From positions 1 to 46,477 of IMG/VR virus record IMGVR_UViG_3300047494_000043: a stretch of DNA of 46,477 nucleotides, one strand, 5' to 3'. The notes beneath the pieces were generated by a model that made no database searches, was not told the origin of the DNA, and worked only from the letters and a program-made list of their open reading frames with translations. Within the stretch, counting starts at the first letter, position 1. The number at the start of each line of letters is the position of its first letter. Of this stretch, positions 1,577 to 39,336 are shown one piece after another. This stretch comes from a virus. A program made the translations under genes and the position numbers.

Positions 1577-3388
1577 ATGGGCGGGTTTAGTAATACAATT
1601 GCAAATTTTGCGCGTGAGACGATTGAGAATACCGGGGCTAAACTTGCTACTAAGTTTGGTCCTGGTATTGCCGCATCAGCACATGATCTTAGCGAAAAAG
1701 TAGAGTCCGGGCTTTATCACGCGGTTTTTAAACCGGAAGCGGCTTTTAAAGATATTCCCGCTGCTAATAAGCTATGGGAAGCATATAAAGGCCCATATAA
1801 AGAGCTTGTGAATAAGCATACAGCGGAGGGGGTTTCTCTTGCTATCAAGACAGGCTCTAATCAACCGATTCATGAAATAGAATCCGAGGCGCGTAAAAAA
1901 GCCTCCGATGCAGTATTCGGCCCCAAGCATCAGGTAATACAAGGGGTTCTAAAACATGTCGAAAAGACAGTATCTAAGAACCGTGCTGATATTATTTCAG
2001 ATCATCTTAATATTCTTTTCAACGAAGCACCTATCAAGGGCGGTCCTAATGAGGGCAAGAGTTCGTTTGATGTAGATATGCGCGGGTCTAAGAAGAATCC
2101 TGATGCGGGATTTGCGGGGCCGACTTCTAAATATAGGGATTCTTCGGAATCGTTTATAGAGAAAACGGCTAAGGTTCATCAAGCGATTTTGGCTTACAAA
2201 GCCGCTATTCCGCATTTGGCGTCTAATCTTAATATTCTGATTAGTGACGGCTTCAGCACTTACGCTAAAGCTCTTGCTACTAATTTTGGTCCCGGACGTA
2301 AAGCTGCGGAGGCGATGGTGCTTTCGAGTAATGCATTAAGCGAAGTTTGGGTTAATGGATATAGAGAAAAGCAAGCGTTCGAGGCTGGGATTATTCACCA
2401 GTTCGCCCCCGGAAGTGTAGGTGAGTTTATACACCGGAATATGTATATTCCAGGTATGCAAAGAGTAAGATACGAAACGCTAATGATGTCAGCACACGCT
2501 TCTAAATTTGCTGCGGAACACGCAATCGAAGAATTAAAAGCAGGAAATACTAGATATGCACTACCAATGTTTAAAGAGCTTGGATTGGATCATAATAAAA
2601 TAGCAGCCCAAGGATATCAACTCGCTCCTGATGATATTCAAAAGGTTTATTATCACGGCACTGATACTCGAGCATTCCTTAGTCAAAAAGATAATCGTTC
2701 TATTATAAGCCAACGTAGCCCTATTTTTCGTATAGCTGGAGCATTTCATAACTACGTTGCTTCTCAATCAAAATTTCTTAGAGCGACTTTTAAAAGACAA
2801 TACGAGCAAGGAGATTTTGTTGGGATCGGTCGAAATATTGCATTGTTAAGTATGGCCTTCCCGGTACTTGGTGCGACTATCTACGAATCCGAGCGGCTAC
2901 TTAGTGGTAATGATTGGGACGATCCAGCGGGGCATTTAGAAAAACGAGTCGAAGCAACACCAGCAGGGATGGCGTATGATGCTGTTACTGGTAAGAATAA
3001 TGCTACTTCTGGAGCGCAGGCTGCTCTTGCTACTATTGAAAATTTATCTCATCTGGCGTCCTTTGGAGTAGCTACGGGGTATATTAGAGGAGCGACACGG
3101 TCGCACTTAGCTAATCAGATATTAGGTCCAGATGCAAATATGCTTGTCCAAGGGCTTGAAGACGTACAAAAAGCACTGCATACAAGCAATAAAAAACCCG
3201 ATGCGTGGAAACCGTTAGCTCGTGATATAATGAGCGACACTCCATCATTAGGACTTGGACAGATAGCAGCGCACCGATTGCTTCCTACTAAAACTGAAGA
3301 AGCACGAGGGAAGCCCAAAAAATTTAGGCGCTCTCGGCCTAAACCTGAGGATAATAATCCTTTCAATGCAACTGATTTTAAATATTAA
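1577..3388 (+). CDS. Large internal virion/structural protein
   Basis: The product is 603 residues and starts 2 bp after the preceding virion gene, so the two are translationally coupled. The N-terminal half is helical and Ala/Lys-rich. The middle contains hydrophobic stretches (for example around residues 420-440, encoded near 2830-2900) that could insert into a membrane. The C-terminus is basic with many Arg and Lys. I see no enzyme motif. With the two preceding genes (528 and 781 residues) it forms a trio like the internal core proteins that podoviruses eject into the host. A DarB-like or lytic transglycosylase role cannot be supported. Function is inferred from location and composition. 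Confidence 0.65.
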   Translation: MGGFSNTIANFARETIENTGAKLATKFGPGIAASAHDLSEKVESGLYHAVFKPEAAFKDIPAANKLWEAYKGPYKELVNKHTAEGVSLAIKTGSNQPIHEIESEARKKASDAVFGPKHQVIQGVLKHVEKTVSKNRADIISDHLNILFNEAPIKGGPNEGKSSFDVDMRGSKKNPDAGFAGPTSKYRDSSESFIEKTAKVHQAILAYKAAIPHLASNLNILISDGFSTYAKALATNFGPGRKAAEAMVLSSNALSEVWVNGYREKQAFEAGIIHQFAPGSVGEFIHRNMYIPGMQRVRYETLMMSAHASKFAAEHAIEELKAGNTRYALPMFKELGLDHNKIAAQGYQLAPDDIQKVYYHGTDTRAFLSQKDNRSIISQRSPIFRIAGAFHNYVASQSKFLRATFKRQYEQGDFVGIGRNIALLSMAFPVLGATIYESERLLSGNDWDDPAGHLEKRVEATPAGMAYDAVTGKNNATSGAQAALATIENLSHLASFGVATGYIRGATRSHLANQILGPDANMLVQGLEDVQKALHTSNKKPDAWKPLARDIMSDTPSLGLGQIAAHRLLPTKTEEARGKPKKFRRSRPKPEDNNPFNATDFKY

Positions 3389-3547: not shown

Positions 3548-4825
3548 ATGTCTTTGCGAATCGCACTTACTAGCTACACTGGCTACGGAGCACATTTCAT
3601 TCTTCGACTTCTCGCCGAAGGACACAAAGTTGACTATTACTTAACGGAGCCAGATTATGCTAATATTCTTGAAGGCATTATCCCGAGTCCTTATATCCAG
3701 GCTCGTGGGTCAAAAGGATACCCTAAATATTCGAAGTACGATCTATCAATATTTGACCTTACAGGCCGCGAGCGGTGTGCTGAGTATTCAGCAACGTGTT
3801 GCCCAACTATTGGTGACGGCGCGTTTAACTGCGCGGTTGAAGACGATCGCATGTTTGGACTTAACGCTATGGTCGAATGTGGGATTCAAGTACCCCCTTT
3901 TGAAAGATTCACGGATGTGGGACAAGCTAAAGTTTATATATCAAAATCGAAAAAGCGATACGTTTACAAACCGGACGGCGGACAGGAAAACGACACTGAT
4001 ACGACTTACGTATCTAGCTCTGATACAGACATGCTTGATAATATTGACAAGTTGTTTGCTAAAACTAAAGGCAGTCCCTTTGTCCTCCAGGAGTTTATTA
4101 AAGGAACTGAAGTATCTGTAGAGGGATGGTTTAATGGGGATGAGTTTTATCTTGTTAATGTGACGCTTGAAGAAAAAAAATTCATGAATGAAAATCATGG
4201 GCCTAATACTGGTTGTGCAGGGAATTTGGTATTTTATCTTCGTGAGTCTGCGGAACTATATAAGCAGGGACTTGAGAAAATGAAGCCGTATCTTCGTAGT
4301 GTTGGCTATACAGGGATGATTGATCTTAATACTATTGCCACTGATAACGGGCTTTATGGACTTGAGTGGACTCCGAGATTTGGGTACGATGCAAGTGCTA
4401 CGTTGATGCAGATGTACGGCGGTAATATGGGCGAAATGATGTTTAAAATCGCTACAGGCCAAGTACCGGACGAAAGCTGGCGCGGGGAGTTTGCTGCGGG
4501 AGTCCGAATTAGTATTCCGCCGTACCCTAGTGAAATTAAGGGCAAACATCCAGCAGGACTTCCGATTAAAGGTATCACGCCAGCGGATTATGCAAGCACT
4601 TATATGTATGATGTGATGCTTGATAAGGATAAGCAGCTTGTAAGTGCGGGGCACTCCGGTTTCATAGCCGTGCCGACTGGATACGGGCGTGAGATTGGAG
4701 ATGCTTGGGCTATGTGTAATGCACGGATTAAGGAGATGAAAATCCCTAATATGCAGATACGCACTGATATCGAGAAGACTACTACTAAACGGTATAACGA
4801 ACTTTCAAGAATGGGGTTGCTTTAA
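3548..4825 (+). CDS. ATP-grasp ligase-like enzyme, PurD-like fold
   Basis: The product is 425 residues, close to the usual length of glycinamide ribonucleotide synthetase (PurD). An N-terminal Rossmann-like region (residues 3-35) precedes the ATP-grasp domain. Landmarks are the lysine in KPDGG (141-145), QEFIKGTEVSVEG (181-193), HGPNTG (217-222, like GPNTGG of PurD), D259, and LEWTPRFG (272-279), which corresponds to the LEFNxRFGDPE metal/ATP site. The canonical Glu-x-Asn-x-Arg is Glu-x-Thr-x-Arg here, and the PurD N-terminal GGREHA motif is replaced by TGYGAH. The substrate is therefore probably not that of purine synthesis. ATP-grasp enzymes join a carboxylate to an amine or thiol using ATP. 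It lies between virion and fibre genes and overlaps the next gene by the A of TAATG. Fold assignment is fairly sure; substrate is unknown. Confidence 0.75.
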   Translation: MSLRIALTSYTGYGAHFILRLLAEGHKVDYYLTEPDYANILEGIIPSPYIQARGSKGYPKYSKYDLSIFDLTGRERCAEYSATCCPTIGDGAFNCAVEDDRMFGLNAMVECGIQVPPFERFTDVGQAKVYISKSKKRYVYKPDGGQENDTDTTYVSSSDTDMLDNIDKLFAKTKGSPFVLQEFIKGTEVSVEGWFNGDEFYLVNVTLEEKKFMNENHGPNTGCAGNLVFYLRESAELYKQGLEKMKPYLRSVGYTGMIDLNTIATDNGLYGLEWTPRFGYDASATLMQMYGGNMGEMMFKIATGQVPDESWRGEFAAGVRISIPPYPSEIKGKHPAGLPIKGITPADYASTYMYDVMLDKDKQLVSAGHSGFIAVPTGYGREIGDAWAMCNARIKEMKIPNMQIRTDIEKTTTKRYNELSRMGLL

Positions 4826-19382: not shown

Positions 19383-19523
19383 CTACTTATTTTTAAGCAG
19401 TAATCGACATTGTAATTCTATCCGAAGACGTTCTGTCCACGAAGCGAATTCATAATTAGCTTTAAGAATTTTTACTAATTCTTCGTCACTTAGTTCTGTT
19501 TCATTTACTGTTTTACGATACAA
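19383..19523 (-). CDS. Small hypothetical protein, 46 aa, TTG start
   Basis: A near-perfect ribosome-binding site (aggagg) lies 7 bases before TTG 19523, which decides the start. The product is 46 residues, helical, with an EELVKILKANYEFASW pattern. It overlaps the end of the FtsK-like gene by 11 bp. It is unknown. Confidence 0.55.
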   Translation of the reverse strand: MYRKTVNETELSDEELVKILKANYEFASWTERLRIELQCRLLLKNK

Positions 19524-20643
19524 GTTGTAACCTCCTATAGCTATTGCGGATTTGTTCACAATTTACGAGTACGTTTCCTATATGCTCCATACTTACATAA
19601 GGCCCGTGGAATCTTGTTATTTGGTCAAATGCGGGACTTTCTACAAGCATATCTCCTTTTCCGAGGAGTTGCTCTGCTCCGTATTCGTTGAGGATTGTTT
19701 TAGAATCGTGGCCGGTTGGCAATCGAAGAGCAATTCTAGTAGCGAGATTCGCTTTAATATCTCCTGTAATAATCCTAACCGATGGTCTCTGTGTAGCACA
19801 AATAACGTGAATGCCAGCAGCTCGTGATATCTGGACAAGGTTCTGCAATCGTTTACCAATTCTTGGATAGCTTGCGATTGGCTCGAATCCAGATTTTGCG
19901 AGATTTGCATCCTCTCCGATGACGTCTGCGAGTTCGTCGATTATGACGACGTAGTAGGGGAGGGGTTTTTCTGATAATCTATTGTATTCACTTATATTCC
20001 TCGCTATTCCTTTCATTTTTTCGGTGCGTTGGCGAACGATATTCATAAGGCGTCCAAATAGTAGATGCACTTTCTCTACCGTGTCTGCTACTTCACAAAC
20101 ATGAGGTAAATCGGCAAACAAAGTTAGATCAAGCTGCTTTGTATCTACCAGCATCATTTTCATTTGTTGGGGGGTTTTGGCAGTTGCTAATCCTGAGATG
20201 ATGGCAGATAAAAGCACAGACTTACCACCACCAGTGCTGCCGGCCATAAGAATATGAGGACTTTCAACAAGATCAATACTGCGTGGATTCCCGCAAGTAT
20301 CGACACCGAGTATAATGGGAAGCATATGATTGTTGTTATTAAGTATATGATGCAAACAGGCATCATACGACACAAGTGTTTTCGTTTTATTGGGAATCGC
20401 AATTGCAATTTGTCCTCCGATTCTGCTAATTAAGACACTCGGTACACCTACAGCTAAAGCGAGGTCCTCTTCAGCTTTCATGATTTTAGCTATTGGAATA
20501 TCAGCGCCAAGGGTTAAGTAGTAAGTCGACACGATTGGACCCGCTTCGACTTTTGCTACTTTGCCACTAATTTTAAGCGCCGCTAGTTTGAGGGAGAGAG
20601 AGGCTATTACTTGGGCGTGTTCTGGGTTTATTGGTTCGCTCAT
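19513..20643 (-). CDS. FtsK/SpoIIIE-like DNA translocase (soluble alpha-beta motor)
   Basis: The product is 376 residues. The N-terminal ~95 residues match the FtsK alpha domain (VEAGPIVSTYYLTLGADIPIAKIMKAEEDLALAVGVPSVLI). The RecA-like motor follows: Walker A GSTGGGKS (135-142), VDTKQLDLTLF, Walker B VVIIDELAD (232-240), and ISRAAGIHVICATQRPS (around 271-287). The membrane domain and the C-terminal gamma (KOPS-reading) domain of FtsK are absent. Such motors pump double-stranded DNA and resolve or segregate circular DNA. In a phage it could act in plasmid-like maintenance, replication or packaging preparation. It overlaps a small gene downstream and follows a chain of tiny genes from the VWA protein. 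Confidence 0.85.
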   Translation of the reverse strand: MSEPINPEHAQVIASLSLKLAALKISGKVAKVEAGPIVSTYYLTLGADIPIAKIMKAEEDLALAVGVPSVLISRIGGQIAIAIPNKTKTLVSYDACLHHILNNNNHMLPIILGVDTCGNPRSIDLVESPHILMAGSTGGGKSVLLSAIISGLATAKTPQQMKMMLVDTKQLDLTLFADLPHVCEVADTVEKVHLLFGRLMNIVRQRTEKMKGIARNISEYNRLSEKPLPYYVVIIDELADVIGEDANLAKSGFEPIASYPRIGKRLQNLVQISRAAGIHVICATQRPSVRIITGDIKANLATRIALRLPTGHDSKTILNEYGAEQLLGKGDMLVESPAFDQITRFHGPYVSMEHIGNVLVNCEQIRNSYRRLQLVS

Positions 20644-24792: not shown

Positions 24793-24998
24793 AATGTTAT
24801 ATCTCCACGTCTTATTGCTAAGAACGTCCATGTTATTGGGGCGGAAGTGCCCAGACATGCTATATCGGATACGATTTTAAGTGCTCCTACTACTAAACTT
24901 GAACAGATGCAAACTTAACAAGTAAAGTTTTTACATACAATATCGTGGTCTTGGACACCGCGAACGTATATGTTGTAGTACAAACGCACGAAACTTGG

Positions 24999-25072
24999 TG
25001 CCCCTAAGTGGATTCGAACCACTAAACATTAGATTTTAAGTCTATTCGCTTTGCCGATTTGCGTATAGGGGC
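24999..25072 (-). tRNA. tRNA with anticodon UAA (Leu), short variable arm
   Basis: A full cloverleaf is visible in 74 nt: a 7-bp acceptor, a D-arm with GG in the loop, an anticodon stem with one A-A mismatch, loop CTTAAAA, and a T-arm with TTCGAAT. CCA is encoded (24998-24996). The anticodon UAA would read UUA (Leu), but the variable loop has only 5 bases, whereas bacterial tRNA-Leu normally has a long variable arm. Confidence 0.9.
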
Positions 25073-25076
25073 TTGG

Positions 25077-25150
25077 TGTGCTAGCTAGGACTTGAACCTA
25101 GAACCTACGAATTAGAAATTCGTTGCTCTATCCAATTGAGCTACTAGCAC
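25077..25150 (-). tRNA. tRNA-Arg (anticodon UCU)
   Basis: A perfect cloverleaf: acceptor GTGCTAG/CTAGCAC, D-arm GCTC...GAGC, anticodon stem ACGAA/TTCGT with loop TTTCTAA (anticodon TCT), and T-stem CTAGG/CCTAG. CCA is encoded. It reads AGA codons. It lies 4 bp from the other tRNA in the same transcript. Confidence 0.95.
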
Positions 25151-37366: not shown

Positions 37367-38568
37367 ATGCCTACACAAGTACGGGGCGCGTATCCTAAAC
37401 TAATGGCTCCGGGGTTGCATAAGATTTACGTAGATGCTCTTGAAACGGAACAGCGTGCAGAAGAGTATCAGGCTATTTTTAACGTAAAGACTTCTACCTC
37501 GGAGTATGAGCAAGACTTGAAGATGGCGGGGTTTGGTCCACTTCAGGAAAAGCCGGAAAATACGCCCGTTGCGTATACTAATATGATCCAGGGTGGCGAT
37601 AAGCGGTATATTCACCTTACCTATGCCTTGGCGGTTCGTACTTCTAAGGAATTGTGGCAGGATGCTAAGTACGGGGTTATTAATCAGGCTCCTAAAGCTC
37701 TTGCTCGTTCTATTCGGTATACGAAGGAAATTGTTGCTTTTAATACTTTTAATCAGGGATTCTCCACTAATGTCACTACGACTGATGGGGTTTCGTTGTT
37801 TAATAACCAGCATCCTCTTCTTGGCGGCCCTAGTGCTACTTCGACGTGGAGCGCGCTTCCTAATCTTATTAGCGCGGCGGGTACTTTCCCCAATCGCCCT
37901 GCTACGGATATTGATCTCTCGTTTACTGGCGTGCAGCTTGGCACAACGCAGTTCGAGCGGTTAGTAGATTCGCAGGGGCTGCCTATTAACCTGAAGCCGA
38001 AAATGGTTCTTATCGCTCCTGAGAATCGTTTCCTCGCTCGTGAATTGTTCGGGTCTAGTGGTAAGCCCGCAACTGATACCAACGACATTAACTCACTTCT
38101 CGGTGAAGATTTGGGTTATATGGTTTGTCATTATTTCACCAACGCTGGCCCTTGGTTTATGGTCGCGGATAAGAAAAATCACTCCCTAACTGTATTCATG
38201 CGGCAGAATCCTGAAGATGAGTTTGATGAGGACTTCGACACTGGCGCTATGAAGCAGAAGACTACCATGCGTATGTCTGCTGGAGCTACGGATTGGTTAA
38301 ATTAATAGCCCCTCGTTAAAGTAATTTAACGATGAGAACTTCGTGAATTCAGGGAAACACCTGCCAAGGTCAATCCTGAGCCAAGCCACTAATAAGTGGA
38401 AGGTGCAACGACTATCCCGACGGGGAGTAGGACTCAGCGAGTCCGAAGCGCGAAGCATCCATTATGGATGATGATATAGTCTGATCTTTTAGGTAACTAA
38501 AAGAGTTAAATCGGAAGCGGATTTAACGTAACATTAATGTAGGCACCTGGGGAAGTAATGGGGCTTAG
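37367..38568 (+). CDS. Major capsid protein, interrupted by a group I intron
   Basis: Exon 1 is 37367-38297 and exon 2 is 38540-38568. The unspliced frame ends after DWLN at 38305 (312 aa). Removing 38298-38539 joins codon T|TA and adds GTWGSNGA before TAG, giving 319 residues. The sequence is that of an HK97-fold capsid protein: a helical N-terminus (EQRAEEYQAIFNVKTS), DGVSLFNNQHPLLGG in the middle, LIAPENRFLARELF, and a final beta strand (KQKTTMRMSAGATDW). It builds the shell around the genome. The splice sites were chosen because they restore a glycine-rich in-frame C-terminus, as is usual in this family; the 3' site is less certain. Confidence 0.85.
38298..38539 (+). ncRNA. Group I self-splicing intron in the capsid gene
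   Basis: Group I core elements are visible in order: P2 hairpin CGTTAAA/TTTAACG (38314-38331), the P/P4 box aatcctgagccaagcc (38372-38387), P6 hairpin CCACT/AGTGG (38386-38399), and the Q/R run aaggtgcaacgactat (38400-38415). After these come hairpin ggactc/gagtcc (P8, 38430-38444), the S box with ATAGTC (38476-38481) pairing R GACTAT (P7), and P9-type hairpins TTTTAG/CTAAAA and GTTAAATC/GATTTAAC. It ends in G. It is about 242 nt with no ORF inside. P1 (GGU with GCC) is short and its register uncertain. Confidence 0.85.
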
Positions 38569-38619
38569 GGTGACAGATTGACCCTTCGACGGCAACCCAT
38601 TTAAAATGAACGACATAGA

Positions 38620-38666
38620 CCTCCTTGACTGTGACGCCATGCGCGAGTATAATTCAGTCAAGGAGG
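38620..38666 (+). promoter_or_regulatory. Promoter inside an inverted repeat that masks the HNH ribosome-binding site
   Basis: cctccttgactg (38620-38631) and cagtcaaggagg (38655-38666) are perfect 12-bp inverted arms. The left arm holds TTGACT (-35, 38625-38630); TATAAT (-10, 38648-38653) lies 17 bp on. The right arm holds the aaggagg ribosome-binding site of the HNH gene. Read-through RNA would form the stem and hide the site; RNA started here (about 38660) would lack the left arm and be translated. Confidence 0.85.
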
Positions 38667-38670
38667 ATTT

Positions 38671-39336
38671 ATGGAATCGTATGTTTGCAATATATGTGAA
38701 GTGTTAAAAGAAGAAAGTCTTTTTAAGTATGAAAATGGTAAGGTTCAGAAAACAACTTGCCGTAAATGTTTGAGCAATAAACATAGACTTGAACTGAAAT
38801 TGGAAATGTTCGAGCATCTTGGTAATGTTTGCGCTTGCTGTAAAGAAGATAATCCTGCTTTTTTATGTTTAGATCATATTAATAACGACGGCCATATAGA
38901 AAACAGAAGACTGGGCGAAATCATTGCAATGGCACGAAAATCTGGTTGGGATAAGACTAGATATCAAGTGCTTTGTTTTAATTGTAATATGGCAAAAGCT
39001 AATTTTGGTGGTGTTTGTCCGCATAAACTTTTACTGACTTTACAAACAATCGTAGAAAATAAAAATCTGTATATCCGTTCTATGGGACGTACAGTAGGTA
39101 ATTTCGATACATCTAATTTAGCCGCTGCTAGAGAAGTTCTTAAACAGAAAAGATTAGAGCGTGGAGAATATGGAAGGGACGCAGCTACTCGAAGTAAAGA
39201 ATACCGAGAAAGGCATCCTGAATATAAAGACCGTAAGAAAGCCTTAAGACAGGAAAAAGCAATAACAAATACCTTAAATGCTCTTACTCCAGAACAGCTA
39301 GAGCAGTTGCAAAAGATGATGTTGGCTAACGCTTAA
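38671..39336 (+). CDS. Free-standing HNH homing endonuclease next to the intron
   Basis: The product is 221 residues. An N-terminal zinc finger (CNIC...CRKC, residues 6-34) precedes an HNH/recombination endonuclease VII-like core: CACC (about 54-57), LDHINNDG (67-74), LCFNCNMAKANFGGVCPH (about 110-127). The C-terminus is basic and then helical. It lies about 100 bp beyond exon 2, outside the intron, with its own promoter and hairpin control. It probably cuts capsid genes that lack the intron and so spreads intron and itself together. The aaggagg ribosome-binding site is 5 bases before ATG 38671. Confidence 0.9.
   Translation: MESYVCNICEVLKEESLFKYENGKVQKTTCRKCLSNKHRLELKLEMFEHLGNVCACCKEDNPAFLCLDHINNDGHIENRRLGEIIAMARKSGWDKTRYQVLCFNCNMAKANFGGVCPHKLLLTLQTIVENKNLYIRSMGRTVGNFDTSNLAAAREVLKQKRLERGEYGRDAATRSKEYRERHPEYKDRKKALRQEKAITNTLNALTPEQLEQLQKMMLANA

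Follow-up and report, generated by a model that had tools for sequence, protein, structure and literature searches.

A group I intron near the end of a phage major capsid gene and a neighbouring free-standing HNH gene that may mobilise it

Near its 3' end, at codon 311, the major capsid gene of the virus record IMGVR_UViG_3300047494_000043 is interrupted by a 242-nt group I intron (38298–38539, plus strand) lying just upstream of a gene for a putative free-standing HNH endonuclease; coordinates refer to the window, that is, the whole analysed stretch of 46,477 nucleotides (positions 1 to 46,477 of the record). We consider it likely that the intron is self-splicing, that the adjacent nuclease makes it mobile, and that the nuclease is expressed mainly from its own promoter. 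Sequence comparison reveals the intron, its junctions, the selection acting on its second exon, the gain of the whole block by a relative, a leader hairpin and a promoter; splicing by the RNA itself, cleavage of the empty capsid allele and control of nuclease expression by the hairpin would complete the proposed scheme.

Results

Fold and boundaries of the intron

The first-pass annotation had read a compact group I intron at these positions, and the covariance search with the Rfam group I model that had been set beforehand bears this out: RF00028 (gathering score 50 bits) matches 38288–38503 with 98.6 bits and an E-value of 2e-24, with the model covered over its whole length. The 46-kb record contains no other match to the group I model. 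The hairpin order and the R/S pairing read earlier were likewise recovered, with P2, P4, P5, P6, P7 (GACTA with TAGTC), P8 and P9 all there in the proper sequence, and the open-reading-frame list contains no frame of at least 60 amino acids within the intron, in agreement with the length of 242 nt and the lack of an internal ORF given before.

On the plus strand, the internal guide sequence GCCCC (38308–38312), assigned by reading the sequence and by pairing energies, is followed by the P2 hairpin (38313–38332), which covaries in the introns of two related contigs, L017 and L024. The 5' strand of P3 (38339–38345) pairs with 38449–38455 and contains four compensated pairs. P4 (38348–38353 with 38375–38380) is built around P5 (38359–38370), both read from the sequence and returned by alifold, and P6/P6a (38380–38404) follows, with four compensated pairs in P6a. 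The 5' strand of P7 (R, 38410–38414) and its partner (S, 38477–38481) are invariant in the three introns. Between P7 and P3 there are two extra hairpins of the P7.1 and P7.2 type (38415–38426 and 38430–38444), found by alifold, the latter with four compensated pairs. P8 (38456–38470) is present in both the alifold and the hand-written structure, and the P9 (38485–38504) and P9.1-type (38505–38527) hairpins covary.

The predicted folding energy of the intron RNA, −74.6 kcal/mol, is better than that of all 200 dinucleotide shuffles (z −4.4). The P3–P8 core with its P7 pairing matches the RF00028 family model and covaries with the two relatives: when the three introns are folded together with alifold, 25 of the 67 consensus pairs show compensatory changes, and a hand-written group I structure contains 14 compensated pairs, a number matched by none of 500 shuffles. 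In the hand-written structure P4 is one base out of register, which weakens the model slightly and leaves the conclusions unaffected. The bases expected at group I junctions are in place, with U38297 ending exon 1, G38308 of the guide facing it at the 5' splice site, and G38539 closing the intron. As the conserved capsid tail resumes exactly after G38539, the junctions are also fixed independently of the fold.

The capsid C-terminus and evidence for splicing

Exon 1 (37367–38297, plus strand) encodes a major capsid protein (PHROG 371 major head protein, E 6e-12; Pfam Phage_capsid_4, E 6e-13) that is 92–95% identical to uninterrupted homologues. Left unspliced, the frame reads DWLN up to a stop at 38303–38305, just inside the intron. 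Excision of 38298–38539 joins GATTGGT to TAGGCACC, so that exon 2 (38540–38568, plus strand, 29 nt) supplies the end of Leu311, GTWGSNGA and a stop. The resulting DWLGTWGSNGA tail, predicted at first pass, is exactly the end of the uninterrupted homologues: 22 of the 24 close relatives from IMG/VR are uninterrupted and end in this way. Most of the distant homologues examined end in GTWGSNGP, GTFGSNGP or GVWGTQGP. None of the homologues examined ends in DWLN, the close intron-less ones finishing with DWLGTWGSNGA or DWLGTWGSNGP, and a naturally short capsid protein ending in DWLN was thereby ruled out.

Over its eight codons, exon 2 differs from 11 intron-less relatives (91–95% protein identity) by four to seven silent changes and no amino-acid changes; compared with the more distant L024 and L139 (73–78% identity), a single amino-acid change, Ala to Pro, is found. 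This pattern implies that exon 2 is translated, and therefore that the intron is in all probability excised in vivo, presumably by self-splicing, which would restore the conserved tail. Where the intron is overlooked, capsid annotations in this phage group will give an incorrect C-terminus.

That there is no intron at all, the element being a chance fold or a sequencing artefact beyond a genuine stop, would accommodate the position of the ORF stop within the element. However, the group I core is complete and high-scoring, the capsid tail resumes precisely past the terminal G, and filled and empty alleles occur among relatives (see below); the RF00028 match, the homologue tails and the exon 2 pattern in effect refute this reading, to which we assign a negligible probability.

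A decaying remnant that has lost splicing, leaving a capsid protein that ends in DWLN, is very unlikely. Its case is that P1 of the window intron is weak, consisting of GGU/GCC and two extension pairs only (−2.5 kcal/mol), and that the unspliced frame is short by merely eight residues; a decayed intron is hard to reconcile with a complete catalytic core and with a conserved exon 2 tail carrying only silent changes.

When bacterial and archaeal genomes were searched with the capsid alignment, no relative turned up. Elsewhere in the 46-kb phage record, adjacent genes for tRNA-Leu (taa) and tRNA-Arg (tct) are located on the minus strand at 24996–25150, and an FtsK/SpoIIIE-like ATPase gene at 19513–20643 (Pfam E 3e-31).

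The downstream HNH gene and its leader

The gene directly downstream of the capsid stop (38671–39336, plus strand) went unmentioned in the first-pass annotation, as did its co-movement with the intron. Its 221-residue product matches PHROG 589 HNH endonuclease (E 4e-4), has Pfam scores below thresholds and keeps the LDH and LCxNCN residues of the HNH motif. The predicted model is confident (pLDDT 85.7), and its residues 35–122 resemble many HNH domains, all with low Z-scores of 3–4.6; a profile search against solved structures gave nothing useful, and Foldseek returned no match for the model at E below 0.001. The conserved residues, together with a confident model that has weak matches, support a putative HNH endonuclease.

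Upstream of the gene, and overlapping its start, a leader hairpin (38614–38673, plus strand; −28.2 kcal/mol, z −4.9) contains the −35 element of a candidate promoter in its 5' arm and the AAGGAGG ribosome-binding site (38660–38666) in its 3' arm. The promoter, TTGACT (38625–38630) and TATAAT (38648–38653), was found by a consensus search of the window, in which TTGAC(N)17-19TATAAT occurs once, at 38625–38653, against an expectation of 0.1. Four relatives (L017, L024, L023 and L035) share this layout of hairpin and promoter with differing sequences; the leaders of L036 and L037 also form strong hairpins, and that of L040 a weaker one. On capsid transcripts reading through into the HNH gene, the hairpin would mask the ribosome-binding site, so the nuclease would be translated mainly from RNA begun at its own promoter.

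Expression of T4 I-TevI, I-TevII, I-TevIII and SegB and of Aeh1 MobE is controlled by a hairpin of this kind, which hides the ribosome-binding site (PMC2988022). As in those genes, the hairpin on read-through RNA would cover the ribosome-binding site, and the promoter is placed such that its own RNA lacks the 5' arm of the hairpin. In contrast to them, the promoter in the window is sigma-70-like rather than of the T4 late type, and the control is predicted from sequence.

Probable joint gain of the intron and the HNH gene

A filled and an empty allele can be compared directly in relatives of the window's phage. Up to the insertion point, L017 and L016 (and likewise L018, L019 and L020) share 3943 of 3944 bases, and after the HNH gene 127 of 127; between these, where L016 has 31 bp, L017 has 898 bp instead, comprising the intron, the capsid end, the leader and the HNH gene. 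Where exon 1 ends, a single base differs, GGC having become GGT, a silent change that supplies the U of the splice site. Gain of the block is more likely than its loss, because the empty sequence resembles that of other empty relatives, although a chimeric origin of L017, a single metagenome contig, is conceivable. The locus presents two features of collaborative homing: an intron without an endonuclease ORF and an adjoining free-standing HNH gene, jointly gained in L017 relative to L016. In the mechanism we propose, the HNH endonuclease would cleave intron-less capsid genes at their 3' end; repair templated by the donor would then copy intron, capsid end and HNH gene together.

HNH homologues are located at the same place beside the introns of L017 and L024, at the same place without an intron in L023 and L035, and again in L036, L037, L039, L040, L042–L048 and L069, whose capsid proteins are 50–56% identical; these distant contigs were found through the HNH search and say nothing about frequency. 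Where capsid proteins are at least about 65% identical, three of five HNH-bearing contigs have the intron and none of about 31 HNH-lacking contigs do, a tally for which we claim no significance, many contigs being near copies. A grouping of the window with L017, L023 and L035, as in the capsid tree, is rejected by the HNH data (p-AU 0.019), and a clade of the three intron carriers by the capsid data (p-AU 4e-5); with the HNH data, in which branches are long, such a clade is neither favoured nor rejected (p-AU 0.50). The trees agree with horizontal movement.

The intron might be real and spliced beside an HNH gene that is a coincidental neighbour, the intron being immobile or moved by an enzyme since lost. 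The relatives with HNH genes and no intron would fit such an arrangement; L017, on the other hand, acquired both elements as a single block, and in the contigs examined the intron at the capsid 3' end is seen solely beside the HNH gene, and we regard coincidence as unlikely.

With about the same low probability, an originally composite intron may have lost an internal HNH gene for which a free-standing one was substituted, an alternative of endonuclease gene turnover raised in PMC10448857. Such an order of events would be in line with L101, where a gene of a different capsid family carries a related intron, seemingly enclosing a related HNH ORF, but the HNH family is found intron-free at the capsid 3' end in the 50–56% identical capsids. 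These HNH-only relatives suggest instead a free-standing nuclease as the earlier occupant, with the intron a later arrival. The L101 intron (2267–3068 of that contig; 64.8 bits, HNH ORF just upstream of the core) apparently lies at the 5' end of a capsid-like gene from another phage family.

A second insertion site in the same gene

The introns of L017 and L024 (RF00028, 91.2 and 94.4 bits, respectively) interrupt the same capsid gene 15 nt further on than the window intron. In both, exon 1 ends in TGGGGT; after the intron the gene continues with AGCAACGGCGCATAA in L017 and with TCCAACGGCCCGTAA in L024, where GGGGT joined to TCCAACGGCCCGTAA yields SNGP, like L139. A 5' splice site after GGAGT, implied for L024 by the Rfam alignment, was ruled out, as exons joined at that point are out of frame. 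In L024, the first 15 nt of the intron (3946–3960 of that contig; AGCGCAGGAGTTTAA, reading SAGV and a stop) mimic the final codons of the capsid gene itself, so an unspliced message would still encode a capsid protein of 319 amino acids.

Intron identity is 81% between L017 and L024 and 64% between either of them and the window; for the DNA of capsid exon 1, by contrast, the window and L017 are 81% identical, with L024 outside at 67–68%. These conflicting relationships indicate that the introns have a history different from that of the capsid genes. The guide GCCCC of the window intron would pair with GGGGU of the L017/L024 site at −9.0 kcal/mol, far better than with its own exon. This may reflect a relocated intron, or a P1 that is weak yet sufficient. 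That one intron lineage has moved 15 nt inside the capsid gene, between the GATTGGT and TGGGGT sites, is a tentative proposal that we regard as less likely than not; such a move could record a jump to the new site guided by reverse splicing or microhomology, an RNA-based route that still lacks direct experimental evidence (PMC3984707).

Four further contigs (L050, L065, L092 and L104) match our own core model and score below the Rfam gathering score. Distant capsid homologues in L178, L211 and L230 carry an interruption, located roughly between residues 89 and 110, that holds the same intron core motif.

Discussion

Collaborative homing was named for the psbA group I intron of cyanophage S-PM2 and the free-standing endonuclease F-CphI (PMC6083498). 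Shared with that system are an ORF-less intron, a free-standing endonuclease gene adjoining the interrupted gene, and filled and empty alleles among related phages; here, however, the interrupted gene encodes the capsid protein rather than being psbA, cleavage is putative, and the searches made revealed no close relationship between the HNH family and F-CphI. The same arrangement has been noted for the ICP1 terL intron and its adjacent T5orf172 endonuclease (PMC10448857). There too an essential phage gene is interrupted and the endonuclease lies outside the intron, although nuclease family and gene are different, and the capsid locus also offers HNH-only and empty relatives. In mycobacteriophage LittleE an intron in the major capsid gene has been shown (PMC3706429); it is likewise of group I type and has an intron-less homologue, but it is 819 bp long with an endonuclease ORF inside, and belongs to another capsid family.

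Every component described here is already known; the interest lies in seeing three states at one locus, a filled/empty pair and two insertion sites. Few phage systems of collaborative homing have been described so far, and its origin has been called unclear (PMC10448857). At this locus three states are present among relatives, namely neither element, the HNH gene alone, and the HNH gene with the intron. Since one pair of otherwise near-identical contigs differs by the cassette, the order 'nuclease first, intron later' would be directly testable on a short, conserved capsid target.
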